The position numbers and the translations under genes are program-made. Of a DNA stretch of 64,000 nucleotides, positions 31,410-47,327 are shown piece after piece. The DNA comes from Nitrospira sp. GTDB taxonomy: Bacteria; Nitrospirota; Nitrospiria; Nitrospirales; Nitrospiraceae. The DNA lies in contig JAEURX010000038.1 of assembly GCA_016788885.1 (NCBI GenBank), positions 90,799 to 154,798 of the forward strand, in the 5' to 3' direction. Below the pieces are notes generated by a model. It saw only the letters and a list, made by a program, of their open reading frames with translations, was not told the origin of the DNA and made no database searches. Every line of letters starts with the position of its first letter. The stretch's first letter is position 1.

Positions 31410-31752
31410 CGGTGGCTCCTTGTGCGGCTGGTGTGGCCACGGGGGCGCCTCTGGGCGGAGCAGGCTCCTGCTCCAATTTCACCGTGAGGAACTTGATGAT
31501 GGAGTCTTCAAGCCGATAGGCGCGTTCTAGTTCGGCGATAGTCGAACCAGGCCCCTGGAAATAGAAATACACGTAGGTGCCCTTCCGTTCACGCTTGATT
31601 TCATACGCAAGCTTCTTGCGGCCCCAATTCTCGGCCCGGACGAGGTTGGCGCCGTTCTTTGTCACGGTGCCCTTCATCTTTTCAATCAGCGCAGTGGTTT
31701 CTTCGTCGCTTAAAGTCGGACGAATAATGAACAGGGACTCGTAGAGCTCCAT
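31393..31752 (-). CDS. rpsF: 30S ribosomal protein S6
   Basis: The 119-residue protein has YESLFIIRPTLSDEE, GRKKLAYEIKRERKGTYVYF and a Pro/Ala-rich C-terminal extension (QEPAPPRGAPVATPAAQG). It is first in the ribosomal run and has a clear promoter upstream. Confidence 0.97.
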   Translation of the reverse strand: MELYESLFIIRPTLSDEETTALIEKMKGTVTKNGANLVRAENWGRKKLAYEIKRERKGTYVYFYFQGPGSTIAELERAYRLEDSIIKFLTVKLEQEPAPPRGAPVATPAAQGATVGGVQ

Positions 31753-31834
31753 GCAGATTCCTCCTGAACAATGGCCCCCATTCGCAGATGGGAGCGAGGT
31801 GTAGGCATGCCGGTCCAGCCGACATGAGCCGTGG

Positions 31835-31864
31835 AAAATATCATACGAATTTCAAACCTGTCAA
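31835..31864 (-). promoter_or_regulatory. Sigma-70-like promoter of rpsF-ssb-rpsR
   Basis: On the minus strand TTGACA (31859-31864) is followed after 18 bases by TATTTT (31835-31840); GATATT and ATATTT at spacings of 16 and 17 overlap it. It lies about 80 bases before the rpsF start, in the only gap upstream. Confidence 0.55.
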
Positions 31865-31931
31865 CCATGCCGCTCCCCCGAGACGCTCTCTGATCGGTCG
31901 TTTCACAGCTCCGACCTTCCGGGATGAGGCG

Positions 31932-33551
31932 TCATGGATCCCCTTCCGGCATCATCCAATCCGTCAATGGTGAAACGTACGGCGGATTTTGGGTCAGACC
32001 GACAACTTTTGATGCCACATGTCCCAAACGACGCTGCGCTCCAAACGTCACGGAAAACCCTGCACCGGTGTCCTGGTCGAGAAATGTCTCCAGCGCTTCA
32101 ATGACCGCATGACGACTGAGGTCTCGACCAGCCCGCTTGAGTGATTCGCCCAGCACCGATACGGCACCCTGGCTCATACGAGCAAAGCCGACACTTGTTA
32201 CGGTAGCCTGCTCACTCAACGCCCGCAACGATGTCAGCTCCCGCTCCGTAGGAGGGTCGATCGGGGTTACGAGCACTACCCGCGAGCGAAGACCGGACGG
32301 AACGGTATGAGCGTGTGCGCCCACCATGCCGATCGCACTCAGCACAATCGGCGAAAGTTCCCGACGGGCAAGTTCATTGGCCATCGAGACAAGACCTTCT
32401 CCGTCTCCTATGAACAGGACGGCATCGATTCCCTGCTGTTCCAATTGCGTGACAAGAGCCACAACATCCTGGCGCCCTTTTGAATATTCATAATTCATGG
32501 CTAGATTCAAGCCATGATGCCGAACTTGCGCCAGCGCCCCCCGCAACGCCTCGCCGTTTCCTCCCCCGTTCCTATGCACGAGTGCCAAACGAGGCTGTGA
32601 TGTGCCCGTGAGGGCCTTCGCTCGGGACGCAAAAAAATCGAGCAATGATCGGAATTGAAGATCGAAACCAGGCAAGGCATAAAATAGGGAAGGGCTAGGC
32701 GGATCATATAGCTGGGGGGATTGAGTCAGAGGAAAAATCGAGGGGATATGGTACTGCTCCAGGCGCTCACGGGCGCCTACCTCTCCCGCCGGCTCAAAGC
32801 TTCCCACGAGGGCGAAGACGTGATGTGTCTCGATGAGGCGAGCAACGGCCTGCTCCGTGAGTGCAGGCTCCCCCCGGGAATCTTCCACAATCAACTCGAT
32901 GTGCCGGCCGTACACACCCCCCTGCTCGTTCAGACGCTGTATAGCCCCTCTCAAGATCGCGGCCACATCCTGGCCTATCCGTGCAAGCGGCCCCGTCAAG
33001 GGGAGCGCCGCTCCGACCGTGACAGCAGTCGCGGTCACTCCGAGATCCGTGTCCGACTCCCCTCCGATCCGGTTCAAATACGCGATCACCCCTGCCAATT
33101 GGTCGGAGGTTAGCTGATACCGCGGCATACTCGGGTGTAACGCATGGTGGGACGCATCAATGCCTTGCGTGATGGCGTTCGCCAGCCCCTCGTCCGTGTA
33201 TCCGGGACGAGCCCCTCCGGCACTGACACCTTCCCGCGCCTGCCTGAGCGCCAGTGGCGTGAGAGGAGGGACTCGCAGCCCCCCCTCTTGCGTTCCCTGT
33301 CCACGGTGGCCATGACACCCCGCGCACCGAAAAAGAGTCGGCGGCAGGCCTCCCTTGACTCCCTCCAAGCTCACGCGAACATGATCCGCATGTCCGTCCG
33401 CGCCATACTGATAGAAATCGCGCCCCTGCCGCTCCTGTGGCGTGAGCGGATCGATCCATGCCGCGGTCGAAGGCCGCACCATACAACACACCACCATGAA
33501 CAGGCCGACGGTAACACAGACTCTGGGCACTCGGAGCAGTCGACGAGCCAT
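31932..33551 (-). CDS. Cytochrome c - periplasmic binding protein fusion
   Basis: The 539-residue protein has a signal peptide (VCVTVGLFMVVCCMV). A class-I cytochrome c domain comes next, with the haem motif CAGCH at residues 76-80 and a likely axial Met142 in HPSMPRY. From about residue 172 a Leu/Ile/Val-type ABC substrate-binding domain follows (VGAALPLTGPLARIGQDV, GGVYGRHIELIVEDS, FALVGSFEPAG). No ABC permease or ATPase is nearby, so the binding domain is more likely a sensor or docking module than part of a transporter. It is the last gene of the multicopper-oxidase operon, ten bases after the SCO gene. It may accept electrons from the oxidase, which is inference. Confidence 0.9.
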   Translation of the reverse strand: MARRLLRVPRVCVTVGLFMVVCCMVRPSTAAWIDPLTPQERQGRDFYQYGADGHADHVRVSLEGVKGGLPPTLFRCAGCHGHRGQGTQEGGLRVPPLTPLALRQAREGVSAGGARPGYTDEGLANAITQGIDASHHALHPSMPRYQLTSDQLAGVIAYLNRIGGESDTDLGVTATAVTVGAALPLTGPLARIGQDVAAILRGAIQRLNEQGGVYGRHIELIVEDSRGEPALTEQAVARLIETHHVFALVGSFEPAGEVGARERLEQYHIPSIFPLTQSPQLYDPPSPSLFYALPGFDLQFRSLLDFFASRAKALTGTSQPRLALVHRNGGGNGEALRGALAQVRHHGLNLAMNYEYSKGRQDVVALVTQLEQQGIDAVLFIGDGEGLVSMANELARRELSPIVLSAIGMVGAHAHTVPSGLRSRVVLVTPIDPPTERELTSLRALSEQATVTSVGFARMSQGAVSVLGESLKRAGRDLSRHAVIEALETFLDQDTGAGFSVTFGAQRRLGHVASKVVGLTQNPPYVSPLTDWMMPEGDP

Positions 33552-33561
33552 GATGCAGGAC

Positions 33562-34152
33562 CTATTGAGCGACGTCAGAGGGAATGGGGTCGGGTCGGCC
33601 GACGGCAGCGTCGAGGCGTTCCATTACCATCGGAACAGAGGCCTCGCCGTACAGGCGCGTCCATGTCCCAGCGGCTTCGTTTCCAATGACCACGATGGCC
33701 GGATGGTCCGCTTTGTTCGATGCGAAGACCTGCAGGGATGCCAAAATGCGGGCGACATCTGCCGGGGTGCCGGTGAGGAAGCGCCATCCCTTCCCCGCGC
33801 CAAATTGCGCGGCATAGGCTTTGAGTCGGGACGGCCGGTCGTGGACGGGGTCGACAGTCACAGATAGTAGGGTAACCGGTTGGTCCGTTGCTCGTACCCG
33901 GTGGTACACACCGCTCAGCAACCCGGTTGCCGCAGGGCAACTGGTGTTACAGGTCGTGTACATGAAGTTGATGACCACAATGTTCCCCTTCACCAAATCC
34001 TTATAGAAGCGGTGCGCGATACCGTCTTGGTCGATCACCTCGACATCGGGAATGGAAGGCAGGGTGACATCGGACCAGGCCGGCGCGGCAACCGCGCTAC
34101 ACAACCACACCATCATCATGACGGCAACGTTCCTCAGCCTCATCAAGCACAT
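33562..34152 (-). CDS. SCO1/SenC-type copper chaperone
   Basis: The protein (196 residues from 34152) has a signal peptide (MRLRNVAVMMMVWLCSAV). A thioredoxin-like fold follows, with the copper-binding CNTSCP motif after VVINFMYTT and the downstream His in KADHPAIVVIG. SCO proteins deliver Cu(I) to copper enzymes such as cytochrome oxidase CuA. Here the gene lies four bases after the beta-propeller gene and two genes after a giant copper oxidase, so metallation of that oxidase is the likely job. ATGs at 34152 and 34143 are both plausible; the frame is open to 34293. Confidence 0.9.
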   Translation of the reverse strand: MCLMRLRNVAVMMMVWLCSAVAAPAWSDVTLPSIPDVEVIDQDGIAHRFYKDLVKGNIVVINFMYTTCNTSCPAATGLLSGVYHRVRATDQPVTLLSVTVDPVHDRPSRLKAYAAQFGAGKGWRFLTGTPADVARILASLQVFASNKADHPAIVVIGNEAAGTWTRLYGEASVPMVMERLDAAVGRPDPIPSDVAQ

Positions 34153-34156
34153 GCCC

Positions 34157-36133
34157 TCATGGCTTTCCCGCCTCTCCCAGAGCCTCCGGAGAAGACGACA
34201 TCGGTGGCCCGACCGTGAGCAGAACGGGACGGCTATCTGCAAAACGCACCTGCCTGGAGGATGATTGCACCAGCACCCGATATTCTCCCGCATGCGGAAA
34301 AGACTGTGTGATCACATAGTGTCCGGCGTGTTCTTCTTTGGCCCACCGTCGTTGTTGCCATGTGCCCGGCGGCTCGAAGAGCAATACCTGCACGTCATGG
34401 AGTCCCGTGACCGGCTCCTGAGTATCGGCATCCAGCAAGTCGAACGACAAGGAGGCTGGAACGTGCGCCGGCACGAGTTTGCCCTCAAACCGCACCTGAA
34501 TACGTCCCGGTCGAGCGCTCGGCTCCCCGGCCGTGGACATCGGGGATTGCTGAACCGCCACCTGAAAACAGTGGGACACGCGAGGTTGGTCAAGTAACAC
34601 GGGAACGTCGAATCGACCGGAGTGCGGAAGCGTCACGGTCGCCTGGTACACCCCGGGAGTCAGCTCTTTCAGGCTTCGATCCAGCACGAGGATGCCACGC
34701 GGCATCCGACGGTAATTCGAAAAGGTCCCCGTCGGAGCCATCATGCCTTCCTGATAATAATGGAGCGTCGCATCCGGTGCATTGGCGATCATCACGGCAT
34801 TGCCTTCGGGTGTCGCGACAATCATAGGGGCAACACCCAGTTCCTGCGGCGCGGCACTCGGCGCTTGCCGTCCGGCCTGCACATCCAGTGGAGCCAGCTT
34901 TCCCTTCCGAGCCTCACGGAGATCGAGGAGGGTGAACTTTTCCGATTCGATGCCACGCACATAGGCATACCGTTGCGTGAACACGATTTGATCCGGATCT
35001 TTGACCACCTTCGTGGTGGCCGTCACCGTGTTCGTGGCGGTATCGATGATGGACAGGCTGCTCTCGACTTGATTGACGGCAAAGACAAAGCGCCCCTGAG
35101 GCTCCACAGCCAAGGCGACGACGCCCGGCGCCAGGGACATCTGAGCGACAGGGCGATGTGTCGAGGGATCAATCGCCACAATCTCCGAGCCATTGACCCC
35201 TCCGACGTACATCCGACGGGCAGCGCTGCTGTAAGTCAATGCCACAGGTGTCTTGCCGACCGGCACCGACGCCACAGGCGCCAAGACCTGGGTATCGATC
35301 ACCGACACCGTGTCGCTCTGGCTATTCGTCACATACATGAATCGACCGTCGGGAACAGCCGCCAATGTATGAAGTCCTCGTCCTACCGTTATGGACTCAA
35401 GGAGCCTGTGGTTTTCCCCGTCAAGCACCGCTACCTGATGTGTTCCGTCCAGGCCGACCCAAAGCCGGCGGCTATCGGGCTCCCAGAGGATTCGTCCCGG
35501 GCGTGCTCCCTCTCCAACGGCAATGGTCTGGGTGAGCTTGCGGGTTCGCGTCTCGATCACCGCGACGGCGTCTGCATCCGGAATCGTCACATACAGATAC
35601 GTCTGATCGGGACTGAGGACCCAATCCGCCCCGACACCTGGCAGCGTGACAAGACTTTCCAACTTGGTCGCGCTAAACTCCAGCTGCGGGTCGATCACCG
35701 ATACCGTCTTGTCGTGATTCAGCGTCACAATCACATAGCGATTCAAGTCGATCTCGGCGCGGGCACTCAAGCGTCCACCGGCCAGCCGACGGACCTTCTC
35801 GTAGCAGGTGACTTCATCAGCCGCCATCTCAGAAGGCCGACCCGTCATCCACCCCTTTGGACGTATCCCCACCACAGGAGATCCACTCCTGGCATCCATG
35901 AGCGCGACCCTGACCGTGGCGAGTTGACCGGCGGTCAACTCCTTCCCGGTTCCCGATGCGCTGTTCAGAGGAGCAACGGTCAGCTCAATTGCGAGACCGT
36001 TCTGTTCATACCGTTGCACAGCAGAGGGCAGCGCAGACTCTGTTGCGCCAACTACCACAGGGGCTGCTGCGAGCAGAAAGGTCGGAATACTTCCGCTCGC
36101 CGCGACCAGGAAGTTGCGTATGGTTTGTCTCAT
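34157..36133 (-). CDS. Secreted YVTN-type beta-propeller protein
   Basis: The 658-residue protein has a signal peptide-like N-terminus (FLVAASGSIPTFLLAAAPVV). A beta-sandwich-like region (IELTVAPLNSASGTGKELTA) precedes a seven-bladed-type propeller of YVTN repeats, for example GRFMYVTNSQSDTVSVIDTQ, YLYVTIPDADAVAVIETR and VSVIDPQLEF. Two more beta domains follow (VQVLLFEPPG, PHAGEYRVLV). The start overlaps the oxidase stop by four bases (ATGA), so its amount is coupled to the oxidase. Propellers of this kind often act as protein-docking platforms, but no enzymatic motif is evident. The frame is open to 36175. Confidence 0.85.
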   Translation of the reverse strand: MRQTIRNFLVAASGSIPTFLLAAAPVVVGATESALPSAVQRYEQNGLAIELTVAPLNSASGTGKELTAGQLATVRVALMDARSGSPVVGIRPKGWMTGRPSEMAADEVTCYEKVRRLAGGRLSARAEIDLNRYVIVTLNHDKTVSVIDPQLEFSATKLESLVTLPGVGADWVLSPDQTYLYVTIPDADAVAVIETRTRKLTQTIAVGEGARPGRILWEPDSRRLWVGLDGTHQVAVLDGENHRLLESITVGRGLHTLAAVPDGRFMYVTNSQSDTVSVIDTQVLAPVASVPVGKTPVALTYSSAARRMYVGGVNGSEIVAIDPSTHRPVAQMSLAPGVVALAVEPQGRFVFAVNQVESSLSIIDTATNTVTATTKVVKDPDQIVFTQRYAYVRGIESEKFTLLDLREARKGKLAPLDVQAGRQAPSAAPQELGVAPMIVATPEGNAVMIANAPDATLHYYQEGMMAPTGTFSNYRRMPRGILVLDRSLKELTPGVYQATVTLPHSGRFDVPVLLDQPRVSHCFQVAVQQSPMSTAGEPSARPGRIQVRFEGKLVPAHVPASLSFDLLDADTQEPVTGLHDVQVLLFEPPGTWQQRRWAKEEHAGHYVITQSFPHAGEYRVLVQSSSRQVRFADSRPVLLTVGPPMSSSPEALGEAGKP

Positions 36134-39100
36134 GGTTGCGTAACCGGAGTCTCGTTCGACGCCTGAACTTTGCACAGGTCCGACGAGGCCACTTTGCTCG
36201 TCTCATACCCGAAGAGATTTCCGGCCCAGGCCCAATCCGGTTGATACGAGCGCAGCCCGGGGTTCTCCTCAACTCGGAAGATGCCCCACAATCCGCCGCC
36301 GAACATGAACCCCTCTTGCGTGCGGTAGAGATAGTCGCCCGGAACCTTACAATCCCCTCCGGCCGTTGTCAGAATGTTCACGTTGCGGCCCGGCCCAATG
36401 CCTCCGGCCGATCCGACTCGCGTCAGGCCATCCTGATTCCAGCCCATGGTTTTCGACGCATCGATCCATGGACTCGGCACCCAGTCGTGGCCGAAAACGG
36501 TGAAGCCGTGCTGCCGTGGATGCCCTCCTGGATGTACCACCCGGAACCGCACCGGCTCTCCGGCCTTAGCGGTAAAGATCGGCGTTTCAGGATCACAATA
36601 TTTTTTCCCCATAAAATCAGCCTCGCACCGGAAATGCGGAACCGTGGAGCTCAAGACATTCGACCAATCGAACTGGCTCATCGTCTCCGGCTCATCGGCT
36701 GCATTGGCGCCTAATCTCGCCCAGAGCGGCTCCGAGCGATAGTTGAACCCCTTCTGCCCGGAATCTTCGGAGTCGTCCCCGTTCCGAAGATTGGGAATGG
36801 GCTGCCCATACTGCTGGACGCTCAGGTTGTCCTGATACAGCAGCACCATTTCTTTGAATCGATACAACTGTCCGGAGTCCACCTTGGGCTCGACGGGGCA
36901 GACCCGGTGTTTCAGATGTCTCCCCTGCCGGCCTGATGCCGACTCCGGCTTCCAATAGGTCACCACCGCTTCGGCGTTGCCCGTCGACGGCACGGTCTCC
37001 CAGCGCGAGCATTGCGGCTCGATGAGTAAGGCGCCGATCGCCCCGTGGGACGCATGTTTGATGACATCTCCCATATCCTGCAAGCCGATGGCTCCAAACT
37101 CATGCGGGATGCCCACGATGCGAGTCCCCTTCTCATTGGTCACGATGTCGCCGGCGTACCAGAGGTAGGTCTTGCTGGCACCCGGCGCGACGGTGGAATC
37201 ATCATTGAGTCCCACATGCGCACCGTCGCTCTTCAGCAGGTTATAGTCCACCAGCTGGGGGTGTAATCCGACCCGGCTCGACGAACGTACCTGATTAAAC
37301 GAGAACCCCGAGACGATCGGGGGTACCATGTTGTAGCTCCAGGTTTCCGGATGATCGGGGCCATCCTGCATGACCGCAGGGAGGTGGTTGGTCAGGGTGA
37401 CACGGATGCAGTCGCCGGCCCGGGCGCGAAGGATGAGCGGCTCCGACCGCTTGCTCCCCGATCGCAGCATGGCTTTCTCGCTGGATTCCACGAAGATAAT
37501 CGCATTGGGATCTGCAATACCGAAATGCTCGTTGTAGAACAGCTTTCCGCCTGGTAACAGGTCCTTGGCCAACCAGGCTTCCACCTCGTAAGAGCGGGAT
37601 AGCAAGGTCTGACCGCCCTTCTGACAGAACGCCTCCAGCGCATCGGTCGGCGCGGCGTTCGATCCCGCGTCATCACCGGCGTCGTCATCTGAGACCTCCA
37701 GCCTTTCGCGATCCAACAGCTCGTCGAGATTCTGCATGAACGCCGACGCCAGGACATCATGCGTTTTCTCCGTATTGCCCGGCAAGCGAACAAGGCCCTG
37801 TTCATCCTCCGTACGGGGATAGACACGCATCAGTCCCCACTGACCATCCCACAGATTGTCCGTCGCGGCTGAGGAGTAGAGATGATCGATCGGTTTGCGC
37901 TCGCCTGCTCCGCCGAGCGATTTGTTTCCATCGCTTCGGCCGAACGGCATAAAATCCACCACGCGATCGTTGAATTCGAAATGCTCGGAAATCCCGATAG
38001 TCTGGGCATTCACATAGCCTGTGTTCAGACTATCCGGCTGGGCCAGCCATTTGGAGCCATGCATCGTGAAGACATGTTGTTCCTCCTGGGCTCCCTGAAT
38101 CAGCCGAATCTGAACGTGATCGCCTTCATAGGCTCGCAGGAGCGGTGTCGCCGGATCACCTGGCGTACGCCCCTTACCGATAGGCTCGGTAAACAGACGC
38201 TCGTCTACAGACTTTTGTTCCTTATGAACAGTTGAACTGAACACATGCGCCAGATCACCGCGCTCCTGATCGACGGGCAACTGCGTGAACTGATTGCCCG
38301 CTTTGTCCTGCGTCGCGATGCGCAACGGAATCGGTTCGTTCCTGTAATTGATCAATTGGGTGCCGGGATCTTTTGTCGAGATGCCTTCCGGCACAGGAAT
38401 ACGGCCGGGGAGAATAGGCGTCTGTAACCCACCTTCGATCTGACTCGGTGGGTTCACCGGTTGATTCTCCTTGTCGTAGACAATCGCAAAATCCGCAAAG
38501 GCCAGATTGAATTCCCGGCCGGTTCGATCGGCGTCGATACTGCCCTTGGAATCGAGCGCGTCACTGCACACGACCCCGTCCTTGCCCGGAGTGATGCAGG
38601 TCTTACCGTGACTTCGCACGATCACGTTCGCGGCATAGGAGGTCGGACCGCCGTCCTTGCGCCCATTCACCGGCTCAGGAACACCTGTGGCATCGGTTCC
38701 CCCCATCACTCGGCCATCCGGGAAATACCATTTTGAATTTCTCGGCTCGACCACCAGCGCGGCATAAAACCCGTGGTGCTGATGCGAACTCGGGCCGAAA
38801 TGGTCGTGAGTGAACACCGTGCGCATCGTGCGATCTTTGGTGCCCTTGTCGCCAGGCTTTCCGTTCAGCACCGGGTCCGCCCACCATCGCTGCGTCGTGG
38901 TCTGCGCTCCACACCAGGGATGACCGACAGGATCGTGATCATCTGCCTCTTTTCCGGTGATATCGCTGCACAGACCGCGGGAGTCCCCTGCCATGGCGCC
39001 GTTCTCAGTGGCTCCGAGTTGTCCTTTACGAAGGAAGAGCCGATGGGTGCGAGGCTTGAGCCGCTGCGCGGGATTCGTCTTGTTGTAGGCCTGGATTCTT

Positions 39101-42100
39101 TCCCGCACTTCATCGGCAGCCAAGGTGCCGTCTTCATAATTCCATCCATTGCCCGATCCATCCGATGATGTGACGTCGAACTTCACCAGATGAATGTGCT
39201 GACCGATCGTATCGGTCGGCGTATAGACTTGAAAATCATCCAGGTTGAGATTGCTCGGGATCAGATTCGTTGCGTGAAAAACCACGCACTCCCCAGACTG
39301 CGCCCGGAAGAAGAGTGGCTCGGTGGGACGATTCCCGTCCAAAGTTTCTTTGACATCTTGCTCCAAGACCGGGAAACGGGCTTGCGGGTCATGCCAGCCC
39401 GATTTATTGACCGTCATATTCATCTGGATATAGACGGCACGATATTCGCGCGTCTTCACATCATGAACATGACCCTTTTCGTCAACGAACTGCTTGGGGC
39501 AAGGGTTTGAGAACGGGGCTCCTGACTTCCCGTCTCCGCGCTCGGCATCGGCGACATTCCCCCCACCGTTCACATGGAACAACACCCGCGTTCCGTGAAG
39601 GTCATCGCAGACGCCGTTGGAAAGACAGGTCACATAGCCAGGTGCTTCCCAGTTATAGGGGGTATACGTCCAGCCCGGAGCGCCGGGGCGAACGGCAGAA
39701 GTGCCGTTGACCTGAGCCATTCCGGCATGAAACTTCATCGCCCGTTGTTCGTTGGGCGTGCCGGCGGTCGAGATCACATCTAATTTTGCCGTGACCAATT
39801 CACGCGCCAATCCGACCAAATCCTTATCGGCATTCTGTGTGGATACGCGCGAAGCAATATGAGCCGACTGCTGTCGTCCTTTATCAAATAGGTCATTGTT
39901 CATCGGCGGAGCCTGTTTCATCTCCTGAGGCCCATGCGCATCCAGGGCGTCATGTACCGTGCCGTCGGCCACCACGTGGCGGCGAAGCGTGCCCACATCG
40001 TCTCCGCCTTCCAGATCAAGCGGCGGTTGCGGGGGCCGATGGCCCGGTTTCCCGGCAATGTAGAACGGGTAGCCTCGAAAACTCTTTGAACTATCTTCAA
40101 TCTCTTTTCCATCTTTGGTCTTTTGCGTCACTACCATCGGCATAGGAGGTAATGGAGTACGCGGCAATGGAACAATGGCGGGGTTCGGCGTCCCTTCTTC
40201 GATTTCGGCATCGGGAAGATTGCGCCACCGAGGATTGTTGTTGGTTTCGCTGATCGTTTCTTGAGGGTCAAATGCTCCCTTTCCGAACAAACCATCCTCA
40301 AACACGTCGTGTGTCCGCCAAAGTTCCCACATCCCTTGCGCAAAATGGGGATAGAGGTGGCAATGGAAAATGGAATCACCTGGCCCGAGATTCCGGTTGC
40401 CGGACCCGCCGTAATGCACCTCGTACGAGAAGGTCGTACCAGGTGAAATCGTCTGTGAATCCAGGTAGTGCGAGAGAGGATCGTGCTTGTCTTCGACCCA
40501 TTGGTGCGCATGTAAATGGAACACATGGGTTTCTTTGGGGCCCGCATGCATGTTCCGGAAGCGGACCGGGTCGCCGAGATAGGAGTGATGCACATTAGAC
40601 GGATCATCAGGATACCGCGCCCGCGTGACGAACCGTCCATTGCCGTCCTTCTTGTACGTCCCGTCTTTCTCCCGTTCGTATCCGACCACCATCGCCGGAT
40701 CGCCGTTGACCCAGGAGGTGAGGAAAAATTCTTCGAGTTTGCATTCCACACAATCCCGCGCCGGGCCAAGCTTGTTCCGATTGGCCACGACGAGAGATCC
40801 CACACCAGAGGCGCCGTAGTTGATCCCCATGCCGTCGCGGAGCGAATTCAGGGGAGAGCCTTCTTCTCTGAGTTCGTCGAAAGCTTGCACGGCAGTGATC
40901 TCATCGTGAAAAATCACGGTAAATTCACGATACGGTCTCCCGCAGGCATTGCCCTCACCCATTTTTTCACAACCGTCCTCTCGATCGATATCGACCACCG
41001 CATTCAGATCCGAGTGGACAAGTTCGCAGCGGCGACGGTCTTGCGGATTACACTTGAGCATATTCAGAATCGGGTCGCCCGCATGTGGCTCGCTCTTATA
41101 CGTCGCGTCATAGTCGATGATCGGCTGGCCGAATTTCGTCGGCTGCGCATGGCTCGCCGCGCTCAAATCTTCATGGGTCACCTGGGAGCGATACCACTTC
41201 GCGCCCCTTGGTTGCACATTAATCGCGCCGAACAGGCCTAACCCGACCTGTCCACCGTCTCCCTCGCCACCGGCAGGCGCCCCCATGGAATAGAGGAAAA
41301 ATGTCCCTTCCTTTTTGGCGTACCAGGTGTAGGTTCTGGTTTCACCGGGTGCCGCCAGTGCGCAGAGATTCGCGCCAAAATCGCTTCGGTTCGAGGAGCA
41401 TCGGCCGTCTGTCTTCTTGCCGCTTCCATCGTGCCATCCATTACGACCGACATTCGCCCCCTGAGAATCGATAGAATCCACCAGACTTAATCCGTTCACA
41501 TGCATGGAGGCGTGCCGGGTAGACGGTTCGTCGCTGTCGCTGACAGCCGTCACTCGCTTGTCCGGCCGGGTAAGCCGTTTTTCCGGATCAAGCATGACTT
41601 CCTGACCGTTCGTTTCCGGAGAAAGCAGGTTGGTGAACGTGACCTGCAAGCAATCTCCTTCATTGGCCCGAAGTACCAACGGGCGTGGGCGCTTGTCGGA
41701 TCGCAATTTGACGTTTCCGGCTAGGTCGATATCGGCAGGCCCGTGCTGAAGGGAGATCGACTGTTCCTTCTCGTCCGACCAACTATCCAAATCTCCATTG
41801 AGGAGATCTTTCTCATCGGTAGGAACAACATCCCGCCGCAACGCATACATGATGCCGGCCGGATTAAATGCACCGAACCGGTTGTAGTAATACACCTGGT
41901 CCAACGCCACCACCTCAGCCGTGATGGTCCGCTCACAGGCCGGCTTCACCACTTGCTGGGATTCCGGCATTTTCGGCTTGGCACAGCCCCACCAGATGAG
42001 TGACAGGCTGAGAATCGCCGTGGTTTTGATGACCACCCCGATTCGAGACACATTCCACCCAAGACTTGTTCGAACGGGACGAACCACGCTCACAGGCGTT

Positions 42101-42147
42101 TTAGCGATCACATGAGAAGGCGTTAGAACGAATTCATCATCTCGCAT
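36130..42147 (-). CDS. Giant six-domain multicopper oxidase (MnxG-like)
   Basis: The 2005-residue protein has an export signal (VVIKTTAILSLSLIWW) followed by GC, possibly an atypical lipobox. Four multicopper-oxidase motifs are complete. THVFHLHAHQW holds His541, 544, 546 and 548; FHCHLYPHFAQGM holds His595, Cys596, His597, His601 and Met606; GQHIHL holds His984 and His986; HDHFGPSSHQH holds His1114, His1116, His1122 and His1124. Six segments of the type RA-x-x-GDC or GDPVRF mark six cupredoxin-like domains in three pairs (near 150/525, 955/1340 and 1585/1865). The enzyme should oxidise a substrate by one-electron steps and reduce O2 at a trinuclear site. Size, domain count and motif order recall MnxG-type Mn(II) oxidases; substrate is unproven. 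GGAG lies nine bases before the ATG. Confidence 0.9.
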   Translation of the reverse strand: MRDDEFVLTPSHVIAKTPVSVVRPVRTSLGWNVSRIGVVIKTTAILSLSLIWWGCAKPKMPESQQVVKPACERTITAEVVALDQVYYYNRFGAFNPAGIMYALRRDVVPTDEKDLLNGDLDSWSDEKEQSISLQHGPADIDLAGNVKLRSDKRPRPLVLRANEGDCLQVTFTNLLSPETNGQEVMLDPEKRLTRPDKRVTAVSDSDEPSTRHASMHVNGLSLVDSIDSQGANVGRNGWHDGSGKKTDGRCSSNRSDFGANLCALAAPGETRTYTWYAKKEGTFFLYSMGAPAGGEGDGGQVGLGLFGAINVQPRGAKWYRSQVTHEDLSAASHAQPTKFGQPIIDYDATYKSEPHAGDPILNMLKCNPQDRRRCELVHSDLNAVVDIDREDGCEKMGEGNACGRPYREFTVIFHDEITAVQAFDELREEGSPLNSLRDGMGINYGASGVGSLVVANRNKLGPARDCVECKLEEFFLTSWVNGDPAMVVGYEREKDGTYKKDGNGRFVTRARYPDDPSNVHHSYLGDPVRFRNMHAGPKETHVFHLHAHQWVEDKHDPLSHYLDSQTISPGTTFSYEVHYGGSGNRNLGPGDSIFHCHLYPHFAQGMWELWRTHDVFEDGLFGKGAFDPQETISETNNNPRWRNLPDAEIEEGTPNPAIVPLPRTPLPPMPMVVTQKTKDGKEIEDSSKSFRGYPFYIAGKPGHRPPQPPLDLEGGDDVGTLRRHVVADGTVHDALDAHGPQEMKQAPPMNNDLFDKGRQQSAHIASRVSTQNADKDLVGLARELVTAKLDVISTAGTPNEQRAMKFHAGMAQVNGTSAVRPGAPGWTYTPYNWEAPGYVTCLSNGVCDDLHGTRVLFHVNGGGNVADAERGDGKSGAPFSNPCPKQFVDEKGHVHDVKTREYRAVYIQMNMTVNKSGWHDPQARFPVLEQDVKETLDGNRPTEPLFFRAQSGECVVFHATNLIPSNLNLDDFQVYTPTDTIGQHIHLVKFDVTSSDGSGNGWNYEDGTLAADEVRERIQAYNKTNPAQRLKPRTHRLFLRKGQLGATENGAMAGDSRGLCSDITGKEADDHDPVGHPWCGAQTTTQRWWADPVLNGKPGDKGTKDRTMRTVFTHDHFGPSSHQHHGFYAALVVEPRNSKWYFPDGRVMGGTDATGVPEPVNGRKDGGPTSYAANVIVRSHGKTCITPGKDGVVCSDALDSKGSIDADRTGREFNLAFADFAIVYDKENQPVNPPSQIEGGLQTPILPGRIPVPEGISTKDPGTQLINYRNEPIPLRIATQDKAGNQFTQLPVDQERGDLAHVFSSTVHKEQKSVDERLFTEPIGKGRTPGDPATPLLRAYEGDHVQIRLIQGAQEEQHVFTMHGSKWLAQPDSLNTGYVNAQTIGISEHFEFNDRVVDFMPFGRSDGNKSLGGAGERKPIDHLYSSAATDNLWDGQWGLMRVYPRTEDEQGLVRLPGNTEKTHDVLASAFMQNLDELLDRERLEVSDDDAGDDAGSNAAPTDALEAFCQKGGQTLLSRSYEVEAWLAKDLLPGGKLFYNEHFGIADPNAIIFVESSEKAMLRSGSKRSEPLILRARAGDCIRVTLTNHLPAVMQDGPDHPETWSYNMVPPIVSGFSFNQVRSSSRVGLHPQLVDYNLLKSDGAHVGLNDDSTVAPGASKTYLWYAGDIVTNEKGTRIVGIPHEFGAIGLQDMGDVIKHASHGAIGALLIEPQCSRWETVPSTGNAEAVVTYWKPESASGRQGRHLKHRVCPVEPKVDSGQLYRFKEMVLLYQDNLSVQQYGQPIPNLRNGDDSEDSGQKGFNYRSEPLWARLGANAADEPETMSQFDWSNVLSSTVPHFRCEADFMGKKYCDPETPIFTAKAGEPVRFRVVHPGGHPRQHGFTVFGHDWVPSPWIDASKTMGWNQDGLTRVGSAGGIGPGRNVNILTTAGGDCKVPGDYLYRTQEGFMFGGGLWGIFRVEENPGLRSYQPDWAWAGNLFGYETSKVASSDLCKVQASNETPVTQP

Positions 42148-42187
42148 GGTCTAAATCTCCACTGGCCTCACTGATGACGGTGACGCA

Positions 42188-43741
42188 CTATTGAGTGCAG
42201 GAAAACGTCGGCGTTGAGCCTCCCGGCCAAGGTGTCAGGCGAGGGATATTGGGCAACCCGCTATCGGGAAGTGCCCATCCGTTCGCAAGAAACGCTAAAC
42301 ATTGAAAATTCAGCGCAGGCTGAGCCCCGCCTTGCACGCCGGTTGGTTCCGGGAAAATATACTCTCCGACCGGCGCCACATAGGCACCGGCCGTCAGACC
42401 ATGTGCAGCCTTGGGTGCGCTCGGCACATCGCTACCGTCCGGCAGTGGCACAGGATCGTCGATGCGCACCATCAGCTCACGCGTGGCACCTCTCAGATTC
42501 CCGTTGAGATCAAAGAGTGTGGCGGCTGTTAAGGGAGGCACATATCGAAACCGACCAAACACCGCCTGGTCCTTTTCCGTGCTGTGGAGCAAGCGGACCT
42601 TGGGCATGCCTCCGGGCGCCACATCCACAGCGTAGACACTGACACGCCGGCTTGGATCCGTCGTGAATCCTTCAACCTTCAAACGGTCCTGGCATTCGGC
42701 AGCAGCGCCGCAATCCACCACTGGCCCCCTTGTTCCAAGCAGTGACTCCTCCAGACTCACATAGGCACGTCCACCGGGTTTGGTATAGATGCCCACATTG
42801 GCCACCAGAGTATGCACGGACAAAAAGTCTCCCTGCGCGTCACGCGCTCTCGTACCCGAAAAGGTGATGTAATCGCCGACTCTCACGGGCGCCTGCTTAT
42901 TCGCATCACACAACGGACAAGCCTTAATTGCGTTATTTCCAAATTTAATCGGCGGCACGAGATCCACGGAGTCCATGACGAAGGTGAGCTCCGCGGGTCG
43001 ATTTTGATTGGGACAGTGCGCGTCGTTGGCCGCCCGCGGCACACACATGGGGAACCCGGTCAGAGCGTGCACCGTGGGATTGCCTTGATCGACAGTAAAG
43101 CGCGGATCAGGGTAGCGAGAGTTCGGATCATCCATACCGATGGGTGGCGGCGGCGAATTCGGCTTGCCGTAACGACCATCCCCCGAAAAGGGGTCCGAGG
43201 CATCCAATGCAGGATCATTCAGGCGGATACGCGCATCACCGCCGCCACACGCCACGGCTGTCGCGCTTCCGCCCACACACATCATGCCGGTTGCGGTATC
43301 GATGTGATGAATGAAGCCGGCGCCGCTATTCAGCGATTGTTGCGAGATACTGACCAATCCGGCGATATAGAGACCATTCACGATATTCCCGCTCACATCG
43401 ACCTCAAATGCCGCCAGAGGAGGAAACTTATCGCTCAGCGCGAGCCCGGATTCTCCATACTTTTTAGAGACGCCCTGCGCGTTGTCGAACAGCTGCTGTG
43501 CGGTAAAATAGGCCGCCGGCAATTGGATCACGAGATTTTTTGGCAACACCACATCCACGCCATTGACGGTCAGCTTCGCGCCGGACAGCGGATCCGCAGG
43601 GCTATCGAGCGTGAAACGTTGGATGTGTCCGATTATCTGAAAGGGAGTCACGACCTGTGAGAGCGCGGCGCGCGGCGAGGCCATGCCACATAAGACAAGT
43701 ACACCGATCATCCATGTGGTGACAGTGGACGGTACACGCAT
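42188..43741 (-). CDS. Secreted protein of unknown function, first gene of the copper-oxidase operon
   Basis: I do not recognise the family. The 517-residue protein has a signal peptide (WMIGVLVLCGMASPRAALSQ) and a beta-rich mature part with GHIQRFTLDSPADPLSGAKL near the start. A CPLC motif (KACPLCDANK) and further Cys (DCGAAAECQD, FSCTQ) suggest disulphides or metal binding. The start at 43741 has a strong GGAGG upstream. The stop lies 40 bases before the oxidase start, so it belongs to the same transcript. It may be an accessory, surface or substrate-binding subunit. Confidence 0.82.
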   Translation of the reverse strand: MRVPSTVTTWMIGVLVLCGMASPRAALSQVVTPFQIIGHIQRFTLDSPADPLSGAKLTVNGVDVVLPKNLVIQLPAAYFTAQQLFDNAQGVSKKYGESGLALSDKFPPLAAFEVDVSGNIVNGLYIAGLVSISQQSLNSGAGFIHHIDTATGMMCVGGSATAVACGGGDARIRLNDPALDASDPFSGDGRYGKPNSPPPPIGMDDPNSRYPDPRFTVDQGNPTVHALTGFPMCVPRAANDAHCPNQNRPAELTFVMDSVDLVPPIKFGNNAIKACPLCDANKQAPVRVGDYITFSGTRARDAQGDFLSVHTLVANVGIYTKPGGRAYVSLEESLLGTRGPVVDCGAAAECQDRLKVEGFTTDPSRRVSVYAVDVAPGGMPKVRLLHSTEKDQAVFGRFRYVPPLTAATLFDLNGNLRGATRELMVRIDDPVPLPDGSDVPSAPKAAHGLTAGAYVAPVGEYIFPEPTGVQGGAQPALNFQCLAFLANGWALPDSGLPNIPRLTPWPGGSTPTFSCTQ

Positions 43742-44235
43742 CGAGAGTCCTCCTCCTGGAAGCAGAGCCACCTAGTATCAATGTGTTCAACGCAATCAAG
43801 GCCCGGAGAGCAGCAACTCGCACGAAAGCAGTACGTAAGGGATGCCCGCTGCGTCCGAACTAGGCCGGGCACGAGATACTAGATTGCACAATACTTGCCA
43901 AGCCATTTCCCATCAGGGCTCACGAAAAATCACATACGCAGACATCACGCGAATAACGCGTACTGCTCATCAAAGTCCTGGAGCTGCGGCTTGCACGTCG
44001 TCACCAATAGCCTGATTGGCGTGATACTCCCACATTCATCTTGGGTGAACGCACATGACTCCGGATGAGACGCGGAGCATACGCACGTCTACGTGAAGCG
44101 GAAGACGGTGCCTTATCACTTTGGATACAAGGCCGTATTGGAATGGATACAGAACGGATTCAATCGGCGTGACGACGAGTGATGCAGTGGGTACTTTCGG
44201 TGGTTCACGATCGTTGGATGATCGCGGCAACCCCC
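43742..44235. other. 494-base gap upstream of the copper-oxidase operon
   Basis: No convincing gene is seen. It holds a candidate sigma-54 element (43885-43900), described separately, and a short 5-bp CGATC/GATCG hairpin just after the lipoprotein stop. The operon promoter most likely lies here. Confidence 0.5.
43885..43900 (-). promoter_or_regulatory. Candidate sigma-54 promoter of the copper-oxidase operon
   Basis: On the minus strand TGGCA (43896-43900), then TGCA (43885-43888), with ten bases between the GG and GC dinucleotides. The -12 box is GTGCA rather than TTGCA. It lies 143 bases upstream of the first start. Such matches occur by chance about once or twice in a window this size. 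Confidence 0.3.
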
Positions 44236-44640
44236 TCAGTATTTTTTCTTGAATTGCGGAGGAGCATGGCTCGGAGGCGTGGGACGAGGGCCCGGCGCAC
44301 CTGACGGCGGACGCGCTGCACCAAATCCTCCGTATCCGCCATACCACCCAAACCCCGCTGGCCCATATGCTCCGTAGGGAATACCGTAGTAACCGAATGG
44401 ATGGCCCCAATAGCCCGCGCCATACCCAATCCCATACCCATAGCCGGGACCAGGCCAATAGGCATAATTTTGGGCGCCCGCGTATCCAGGATCGAGCATG
44501 AAGTCTTGCTGAGCGAGCCGTTGCGATTGATGCACGGACTGGGCACAGGCCGACATCAATACTACAGCACAGAGCACCACGGCAGATCCGCAGAGGCTCA
44601 TAGGTGCGGCTAGATGCCGCTGTACAATTCGTCGATGCAT
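44236..44640 (-). CDS. Small Gly/Tyr/Pro-rich lipoprotein A
   Basis: The 134-residue protein has a lipoprotein signal (VVLCAVVLMSAC, Cys at the lipobox) followed by AQSVHQSQR. A low-complexity Gly/Tyr/Pro-rich body (GYGYGIGYGAGYWGHPFGYY) and a conserved tail PPQFKKKY follow. AGGAG nine bases upstream supports the ATG at 44640. It is a paralogue of the next gene upstream (44662-44961), with the same post-lipobox motif and tail. It is probably anchored in the outer membrane or surface. Gly/Tyr-rich tracts may mediate assembly, but no function is known to me. Confidence 0.78.
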   Translation of the reverse strand: MHRRIVQRHLAAPMSLCGSAVVLCAVVLMSACAQSVHQSQRLAQQDFMLDPGYAGAQNYAYWPGPGYGYGIGYGAGYWGHPFGYYGIPYGAYGPAGFGWYGGYGGFGAARPPSGAPGPRPTPPSHAPPQFKKKY

Positions 44641-44661
44641 CTCGTCGATCTCCTCTCCGAA

Positions 44662-44961
44662 TCAATACCTTTTCTGAAACTGCGGCGGGGTATTCGCGGG
44701 CAGGGACGGACGAGAAGCCGGCGCACTCGCTGAAGGACCGGCACCGCTGGGCGTCCCGCCCGACCATCCATATCCCGGACCATAATACCCGAATGGATTC
44801 CACCACGGTCGCGCCCCAGACCAGATCCAAGATTCATCGGCAAAGGCTCCCGTCATGGGACGACTCCATCCTTCTACCCGCTCACTTTGATGGGAGGACT
44901 GGGCACAGGATGTGAGAAATACGATCATGGATGCAGCAACAAGCCTGGGGCAGCATCGCAT
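44662..44961 (-). CDS. Small Gly/Pro/Trp-rich lipoprotein B
   Basis: The 99-residue protein has a lipoprotein signal ending MIVFLTSCAQSSHQSER, a Trp/Gly/Pro-rich body (WWNPFGYYGPGYGWSGG) and the tail PPQFQKRY. It shares these end motifs and NPFGYYG/HPFGYYG with lipoprotein A, so the two arose by duplication. The ATG at 44961 is chosen because AAAGGA lies about nine bases upstream; the upstream in-frame codon is TTG. It lies 14 bases after the outer-membrane barrel gene and probably shares its transcript. Confidence 0.75.
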   Translation of the reverse strand: MRCCPRLVAASMIVFLTSCAQSSHQSERVEGWSRPMTGAFADESWIWSGARPWWNPFGYYGPGYGWSGGTPSGAGPSASAPASRPSLPANTPPQFQKRY

Positions 44962-44975
44962 AGAGACAGATCCTT

Positions 44976-46121: not shown

Positions 46122-47327
46122 TTAGTCCTGAATGACGCGTTTCGTGTCGTCCAGGTGTTTGTTCAAATAGGGCATGAACGGCGTGCCCCCGGTCCCGACC
46201 GAAGTAGGATTGCTGGCATGCGACTGTTGTTGGCGGAAGATATACCGCTCAGCGTAGTCCAGATGAATCTGACGGAACTGGGCCAACAAATCCACGCAGC
46301 CGCTATACGCCCGCCAGAGTTCGGGGTGCGTCGATTTTCTGTCGCGGGCATACCCGAACAACAATGGCCGTCCTCGCGCGTCCGTGCGCGCTTCCAGTGC
46401 CGCCAAAAATGCCCGGTGGCGCGGAGGCATGTACTCGCGCATTTCGACCAGATACTGCGTCAGTGGATCCTCGGCATGGGGCACGCCAAGCCCCGCATCC
46501 AGGGCTGGCACAATCGAGCTTTGCGACCCCGTCTCACCGCGGAACTGTTGCGGCTGCCCGGCATACTCAGCCACTCCTGCATAGATGAGCCCATTCGGCA
46601 GCGCCTGACTGTTCTTCCAGCCGTGAATGTACGGACGCACACGACTGTAATAAATGTAGGGATCACATCGTTCGGGCATACGCAGCAAGGTCTCGCGCAT
46701 GGCTTCCTGTGCCGTCGCAAGCATTTCCAATCCCGCCAACACGGCATCCACGCGATCGTCCAACGCCGCGTGATGCGCCTGCAGCAGCCCCTGCAATCCA
46801 GGCCCCGCCTTCGCCTCAATATCGATGTGAATCAGCACAAACCACTCCTCATCGAGTCCGCCGAGGAAGTTCTGCAACAACACGATATTGCCGAGCTCAA
46901 TGGGCTTCTGGGGGTCAAGCCGCCGCCAATTGTGCAGTGCGTAGGAAGCATAGGACAGCACGGGCGGACGACCGAGCTGTTGGGCCACCCCGAACCAGGG
47001 ACGAGCGAGACTCGCCGGCAACCGATCCGCAGGATGGTCGGGGTCTTCCCACACATAGGCATGACTGACAAACGACAGGGCCCGCATCACCGACCGAAAG
47101 ACATCCAGACCCCATTCGTCCGCCACCGCGCCCATGACTTCATCGCGATCCTGGATGAACCGACGTACCTGTCGCGCGCTGAGAAGTTTGGGCAGTTCCG
47201 TACCGATCTGGTTCAGAATCGGCTCTTCCGGCAACTGGTCTACGGGGTCAGTCGCGGGAAGAAATCCGCGGGCGGGTGAAAGGTCAAACGTCGAGGGTAC
47301 CAGCGGGGGTAGAGATGAGGTCGTCAT
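46122..47327 (-). CDS. Indoleamine 2,3-dioxygenase family haem protein
   Basis: The 401-residue protein matches the indoleamine 2,3-dioxygenase family, haem enzymes that open the indole ring of tryptophan to N-formylkynurenine. Family motifs are FRGETGSQSSIVPALDAGLG, MREYMPPRHRAFL, the proximal-His region RQIHLDYAERYI, and the haem-propionate loop GTGGTPFMPYL. No signal peptide is present. No kynureninase, formamidase or other tryptophan-catabolism gene is next to it, so the true substrate is uncertain; some bacterial members have other roles. An active haem site is inferred from motif conservation only. Confidence 0.85.
   Translation of the reverse strand: MTTSSLPPLVPSTFDLSPARGFLPATDPVDQLPEEPILNQIGTELPKLLSARQVRRFIQDRDEVMGAVADEWGLDVFRSVMRALSFVSHAYVWEDPDHPADRLPASLARPWFGVAQQLGRPPVLSYASYALHNWRRLDPQKPIELGNIVLLQNFLGGLDEEWFVLIHIDIEAKAGPGLQGLLQAHHAALDDRVDAVLAGLEMLATAQEAMRETLLRMPERCDPYIYYSRVRPYIHGWKNSQALPNGLIYAGVAEYAGQPQQFRGETGSQSSIVPALDAGLGVPHAEDPLTQYLVEMREYMPPRHRAFLAALEARTDARGRPLLFGYARDRKSTHPELWRAYSGCVDLLAQFRQIHLDYAERYIFRQQQSHASNPTSVGTGGTPFMPYLNKHLDDTKRVIQD

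Follow-up and report, generated by a model that had tools for sequence, protein, structure and literature searches.

Ceruloplasmin is built of six cupredoxin domains with a trinuclear copper site between D1 and D6, and in three-domain laccases the N-terminal HxH motifs come before the C-terminal HxxHxH and HCH motifs. The giant multicopper oxidase MnxG is likewise a known enzyme type, and the locus PputGB1_2447 is presumably the MnxG of Pseudomonas putida GB-1. In the appendix of PMC3600357 this locus is given with 1944 amino acids (aa) and Bacillus MnxG with 1217-1227 aa, within a set that ranges from 1217 to 2681 aa. A section of PMC8218464 names MofA and McoA as Mn-linked multicopper oxidases, and in the legend of its Figure 2 mnxG of P. 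putida is accompanied by genes of an SCO protein, an ABC transporter and a propeller of the lactonase family. MnxG of Nitrospira is already in print as well, and passages of PMC12070406 report it in metagenome-assembled genomes (MAGs) of Nitrospira from a sand filter, with a bioRxiv preprint as the source. Here, we describe an mnxG-type gene and its surroundings in a stretch of 64,000 nucleotides of Nitrospira sp. (GenBank assembly GCA_016788885.1, contig JAEURX010000038.1, positions 90,799 to 154,798), referred to as the window, in which an earlier sequence-only reading had singled out a multicopper oxidase of 2005 aa. The protein by itself is ordinary, because its enzyme type is known, and the place of its gene matters more.

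An intact giant oxidase of the MnxG kind

The gene (36130..42147, minus strand) starts with ATG and encodes 2005 residues without interruption. A Pfam search of the product found no domain, and the NCBIfam MnxG model NF041487 matches it with 938.3 bits (7.6e-282) in three colinear parts, which comprise the model positions 1-594, 633-1364 and 1470-1894. The solved Bacillus MnxG (PDB 9bxa_A) matches at 8.9e-100, and the homology to MnxG is significant, colinear and full-length, which is typical for six-domain multicopper oxidases of the MnxG type. The closest named database record (isolate NOB2) is 87% identical, and 13 of the 18 loci of that search are titled Nitrospira. The 2005-aa protein is a real, intact and well-conserved member of the known MnxG kind. 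For the comparison of domains and ligands we used an alignment of 142 rows, which consists of the window protein, the frames of 25 loci and 116 of 120 listed proteins; P0001 (the window's own) and three proteins of at most 1600 aa were dropped, neither the locus L024 nor the paralogues L056-L058 were included, and near-duplicates were kept. The residues WWGC at 52-55 are a candidate lipoprotein signal, with Cys in that column in 79 of the 142 rows, and a lipobox-like pattern lies within the first 120 residues of 60 rows, with the frames as taken.

Repeated segments had led to the proposal that the protein, like MnxG, is built of six cupredoxin domains arranged as three pairs, and this architecture is borne out by profile comparison and its controls. 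The three segments of the first kind, among them YREFTVIFHDE (the first) and FKEMVLLYQDN (the third), are present once each, at residues 406, 1212 and 1764, as are INYGASG, INYRNEP and FNYRSEP at 442, 1266 and 1801, all of them one or two residues from where they had been placed before, and the six GDC/GDPVRF-like segments start at 160, 524, 948, 1338, 1574 and 1861. Pieces of the 142-row alignment, cut by hand, were compared with hhalign. The odd domains match each other (D1-D5 99.6%, D3-D5 98.5%, D1-D3 87.6% probability) and so do the even ones (D2-D4 96.6%, D2-D6 98.2%, D4-D6 99.5%), whereas all nine odd-even pairs stay at or below 8.9% and 18 column-shuffled controls at or below 3.3%. Since hhalign groups odd with odd and even with even while the controls are low, the three tandem pairs are real as judged from sequence profiles. 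All domains are encoded on the minus strand. D2 (residues 400-620, 40288..40950), where the type 1 ligands and one half of the trinuclear set are located, and D3 (residues 895-1145, 38713..39465), with the remaining half, are supported by the 9bxa match, hhalign and the alignment. The cupredoxin-like D1 (residues 80-325, 41173..41910; ends approximate and set by hand) is supported by its hhalign match to D5 and the motif rows, and D4 (residues 1205-1450, 37798..38535), D5 (residues 1512-1722, 36982..37614) and D6 (residues 1755-1962, 36262..36885) by hhalign and the motif rows. These four domains have no full copper set, and at the equivalent places only single histidines are found, namely H216 in D1, H1358 with H1363 in D4, H1629 in D5 and H1880 in D6, which are possible remnants.

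The four copper motifs start at residues 541, 595, 984 and 1114, within the ranges that had been read from the sequence before. HxxHxH (H541, H544, H546) and HCHxxxHxxxxM (H595, C596, H597, H601, M606) lie in D2 (40330..40527, minus strand; alignment), and HIH (H984, H986) and HDH (H1114, H1116), then SHQHHG, in D3 (38773..39198, minus strand; alignment and motif search). With the role of each ligand taken from the general multicopper-oxidase pattern, H541, C596, H601 and M606 form the type 1 set and H544, H546, H595 and H597 belong to the trinuclear set, of which the other four histidines are those of HIH and HDH. The protein carries the complete set of type 1 and trinuclear ligands in D2 and then D3 that is characteristic of the MnxG type. 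All 12 ligands are kept in 137 of the 142 rows, and the remaining five rows are gapped fragments with no substitution. The residue of 9bxa aligned with H601 is Ala, and as the title of this entry names an H340A mutant, we infer that both are the same residue. None of 20000 shuffles of the protein holds the four motifs in the same order and rough spacing, by which a chance occurrence is ruled out with a pattern that was written after seeing the sequence.

The order of these motifs had been described as changed. The motifs that end a laccase indeed come first and the HxH motifs later, which is reversed compared to three-domain laccases and places the protein outside that class. However, the D2-then-D3 order is present in all 20 aligned rows, among them the Bacillus-type MnxG of Priestia (L069). 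Since the Priestia protein and all other compared rows share it, the order that had attracted attention is, on this alignment, simply the order of MnxG. By homology to 9bxa and to the two-domain laccases, the four motifs would meet at one trinuclear centre.

A cassette slot beside rpsF

When the window is compared with five empty slots of relatives, the DNA homology ends at 44236-44965 and restarts at 31836-31865, and the extra piece is about 12.4 kb long. The ends of this cassette (31866..44235), which is missing from the empty slot, are approximate and were taken from the homology breaks and a table of slot lengths. In 28 genomes of the genus an indoleamine-dioxygenase-like (IDO-like) gene and rpsF lie on one contig, at a distance of 0.75-2.3 kb in 21 of them and of 13.9-15.1 kb in the other seven (G000, G006, G007, G009, G013, G015, G024). 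The slot of G019 is split over contigs and looks filled. Besides the window, the slot, which is empty in the 21 genomes and filled by three distant MnxG lineages in the seven, is represented by the loci L061, L062 and L070-L074. The indoleamine 2,3-dioxygenase-family protein of the window (46122-47327; PF01231, 1.7e-85) is of full length and is encoded by what is likely an autotrophic nitrifier, and a match to it is found in 28 of the 29 genus genomes. MnxG has a strong match in 13 of the 29 genomes (best E 6.5e-57 or better), and the other 16 have a best E of 4.9e-10 or weaker; those of the 16 among the matches listed are other giant multicopper oxidases. G012, G022, G025, G026 and G027 have an empty slot and carry their MnxG gene at another place. 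Between the cassette ends (31700-31940 versus 43760-44320) no exact direct or inverted repeats of at least 9 bases were found, and therefore a transposon-like mechanism is without support.

We calculated an MnxG tree from 45 selected rows with a quick search under LG+G4. It covers 10 of the 13 genomes with MnxG; G009, whose MnxG is 90% identical to that of the window, was left out, and G019 and G026 are fragmentary. The proteins of the genus fall into five groups, which are interleaved with Proteobacteria, Acidobacteriota and plasmid copies, and several deep joins have long branches and are unsure. The window group and the nearest group (L016, L060 and a Methylococcaceae row) are split with supports of 80-100. 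The slot is shared by three of these groups, namely those of the window, of G015 and of G013. Between G006 and G013 the flanking genes IDO, OMP and s134 are 93, 93 and 85% identical, whereas MnxG is only 41% identical; the values for G013 versus G015 are 92, 91 and 87% compared to 41%, and for G024 versus G015 92, 86 and 89% compared to 52%. With flanks that are up to 93% identical and distant MnxG proteins in the same slot, the pattern of these sequences is best read as in-place cassette replacement or repeated insertion at one site.

Upstream of mnxG lies the gene of an unnamed 527-aa protein, UP527 (42188..43771, minus strand), for which no match was found in Pfam or NCBIfam. Among 7998 scored proteins 583 are homologues at E<=0.001, and all those with a descriptive name among the 120 listed are called hypothetical. 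UP527 is present in 10 of the 13 genus genomes in which MnxG matches strongly and in none of the other 16 (Fisher p 1.4e-5, relatedness ignored). G013, G025 and G027 contain MnxG without UP527, and in G015 the UP527 gene is located behind the cytochrome gene and not before mnxG. We propose that Nitrospira acquire and exchange whole Mn-oxidase cassettes of separate ancestry at a fixed slot upstream of rpsF and that UP527 is a dedicated partner of MnxG, a proposal to which we give an even chance. If true, Mn oxidation would be a plug-in trait of nitrifiers. The full and empty slots within one genus are a natural comparison for Mn oxidation, and the co-occurring UP527 of unassigned role is a concrete target. 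No report of slot exchange was found in a limited search of the earlier literature, and the turnover of the cassette of about 12.4 kb at one slot and the co-occurrence of UP527 are possibly new.

Three further genes lie downstream of mnxG on the minus strand. The first encodes a YVTN/cytochrome-D1-type beta-propeller with a YtkA-like C-terminus (34157..36175, 672 aa as listed; Pfam/NCBIfam), and with a later ATG at 36133 as alternative start it would overlap the mnxG stop codon. It is followed by the genes of an SCO1/SenC copper-chaperone-like protein (33562..34293; PF02630, 1.2e-19) and of a fusion between cytochrome c and a periplasmic-binding-protein domain of ABC type (31932..33551; PF00034, PF13458). 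The neighbours of the Nitrospira mnxG are the gene types of the P. putida mnxG operon, with the exception of the cytochrome. In 26 MnxG-bearing loci, including fragments and one duplicate (frames of at least 100 aa, E<=1e-4), homologues of the propeller were found in 18, of SCO in 13, of the cytochrome/binding protein in 13 and of UP527 in 16; several of these loci end at contig edges, and L024 and L066 look like one place. A simple operon is disfavoured by L063 and L064, which have neither propeller nor SCO nor cytochrome although 5 to 6 kb downstream are covered, and by L016 and L060, which have no SCO or cytochrome match with at least 5 kb covered beyond the propeller. Scans for promoters and terminators gave counts near chance (6 versus 4.9; 12 versus 9.5). 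A homologue is also present on plasmid pRo-1 of Roseomonas gilardii (L067) and on plasmid pSH1 of Sphingobium xenophagum (L068), then come hypothetical proteins, SCO and cytochrome c. The MnxG-type gene of pSH1 lies near integrase genes.

Proposed function and its rivals

We consider it quite probable that the protein belongs to the MnxG family of giant multicopper oxidases, with six predicted cupredoxin domains in three tandem pairs, and that it uses O2 as electron acceptor to oxidise Mn(II) outside the cytoplasm. Mn(II) would bind close to the D2 type 1 copper, and the electrons would pass via the His-Cys-His bridge to a trinuclear cluster between D2 and D3 for the reduction of O2 to water. 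A Mn(III/IV) oxide would be formed outside the cell, and copper loading may be helped by the SCO1 protein. In its plan the protein is similar to three fused copies of a two-domain laccase, in which one of three active sites would have been kept; ceruloplasmin retained another one (D6/D1). According to passages of PMC5906577, P. putida mutants with MnxG as the sole Mn oxidase act on both Mn(II) and Mn(III). Parts of PMC12070406 propose a role of Nitrospira MnxG in Mn removal and suggest, without proof, that in sand filters for drinking water the removal of ammonium by Nitrospira may be accompanied by manganese oxidation, and a part of PMC11995701 describes such oxidase genes in nitrifier MAGs, with their function said to await verification. 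The AmoA profile had no match in the 29 genus genomes, and the same model, run as control, matched three of five other genomes. Two of the matched genomes, L011 and L021, bear MnxG and the title Nitrospira, and they are likely comammox because the AmoA model matches there. The host of the window is likely a canonical nitrite oxidiser.

Several points weigh against Mn(II) oxidation by a true MnxG. The score of 938.3 bits lies below the equivalog cut-off of NF041487 (3100 bits), and we therefore file the protein as MnxG-type homologue and not, on this score, as member of the equivalog. Two AlphaFold models have a mean predicted local distance difference test (pLDDT) score of 60.0 and 64.2, with much of D2 below 50, and the global Foldseek comparison with 9bxa gave template modelling (TM) scores of 0.33-0.36 and 0.46-0.50 at a root mean square deviation of 13.5 and 10.5 A; these low-confidence models agree with 9bxa on six cupredoxin domains in a colinear match. 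The same genome contains three further giant multicopper oxidases, so that the 2005-aa protein may have another substrate. These are L056 (7377-12434, frame of 1686 aa), L057 (7608-12524, 1639 aa) and L058 (3-3998, 1332 aa, near a contig end), distant relatives with the same D2-then-D3 motif order, and frames of similar length are among the matches listed in many genus genomes. Finally, the substrate promiscuity of multicopper oxidases is stressed in a section of PMC11995701, according to which several families of nitrifiers still lack proof of Mn oxidation.

We rank Mn(II) oxidation first as function, with defence as the main rival for its purpose. The oxidase could serve protection, with Mn(III) quenching superoxide in the envelope, instead of energy gain or mineral formation. 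This was proposed in a part of PMC3578206 for an MnxG-like oxidase with conservation between Nitrospina gracilis and Ca. N. defluvii, both of them without the usual defences, and passages of PMC11995701 raise the idea again. The oxidase meant in that part of PMC3578206 probably belongs to a different type of giant multicopper oxidase in Nitrospira and is not the 2005-aa protein. The patchy presence of the latter, with a strong match in 13 of 29 genomes, is ill-suited to a core defence, and we give protection a rather low probability. It is unlikely that we deal with a broad metallo-oxidase with Fe(II), Cu(I) or a phenolic compound instead of Mn(II) as physiological substrate: the fold is common to laccases and ceruloplasmin, and one paralogue and one Bacillus-type MnxG weakly match copper-resistance oxidases, but the nearest characterised proteins found are MnxG and the adjoining gene types are those of mnxG.

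The length of the protein had been given as about twice that of MnxG. The ratio to Bacillus MnxG (1217 aa) is 1.65, but compared to the 1944 aa of P. putida GB-1 it is only 1.03 and compared to the NCBIfam model (1894) 1.06, and the protein is no outlier. A new subclass is thereby rejected on length, and it is rejected on motif order through the 20 aligned rows that include the Bacillus-type MnxG. That length and rearranged motifs define a new subclass of multicopper oxidases, as suggested by the sequence-only reading, is very improbable, since both features match MnxG and the protein is colinear with 9bxa, even if it scores below the equivalog cut-off and its Nitrospira group forms an own branch in the tree.

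Comparison with known multicopper oxidases

Similar to the P. putida MnxG described by NF041487 (model of 1894 positions, protein of 1944 aa), the Nitrospira MnxG-type protein is long, matches in three colinear parts and has neighbours of the propeller, SCO and ABC types, but it differs by its 938 bits at a cut-off of 3100. The protein of G013 is nearer to this model with 1966 bits, likewise below 3100. Compared to Bacillus MnxG the protein is colinear throughout and has the same motif order, with the same 12 ligands in Priestia L069, a plasmid-borne Bacillus-type MnxG of 1228 aa, and the same ligands in the aligned parts of 9bxa apart from the engineered H340A. In contrast to the 1217 aa of Bacillus MnxG, the Nitrospira protein has about 790 extra residues, which probably lie in loops and linkers. 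Ceruloplasmin and the coagulation factors V and VIII, which have six cupredoxin domains as well, are structural matches to the models, ranked below 9bxa. However, the ligand-bearing domains of the Nitrospira protein are D2 and D3, and its D1 and D6 are without HxH sets, which is unlike ceruloplasmin with its trinuclear ligands in D1/D6. Each pair resembles one subunit of the two-domain (small) laccases, of which 3t9w matches D2 by sequence and others match by fold, whereas in the Nitrospira protein three such pairs are fused with one full ligand set.

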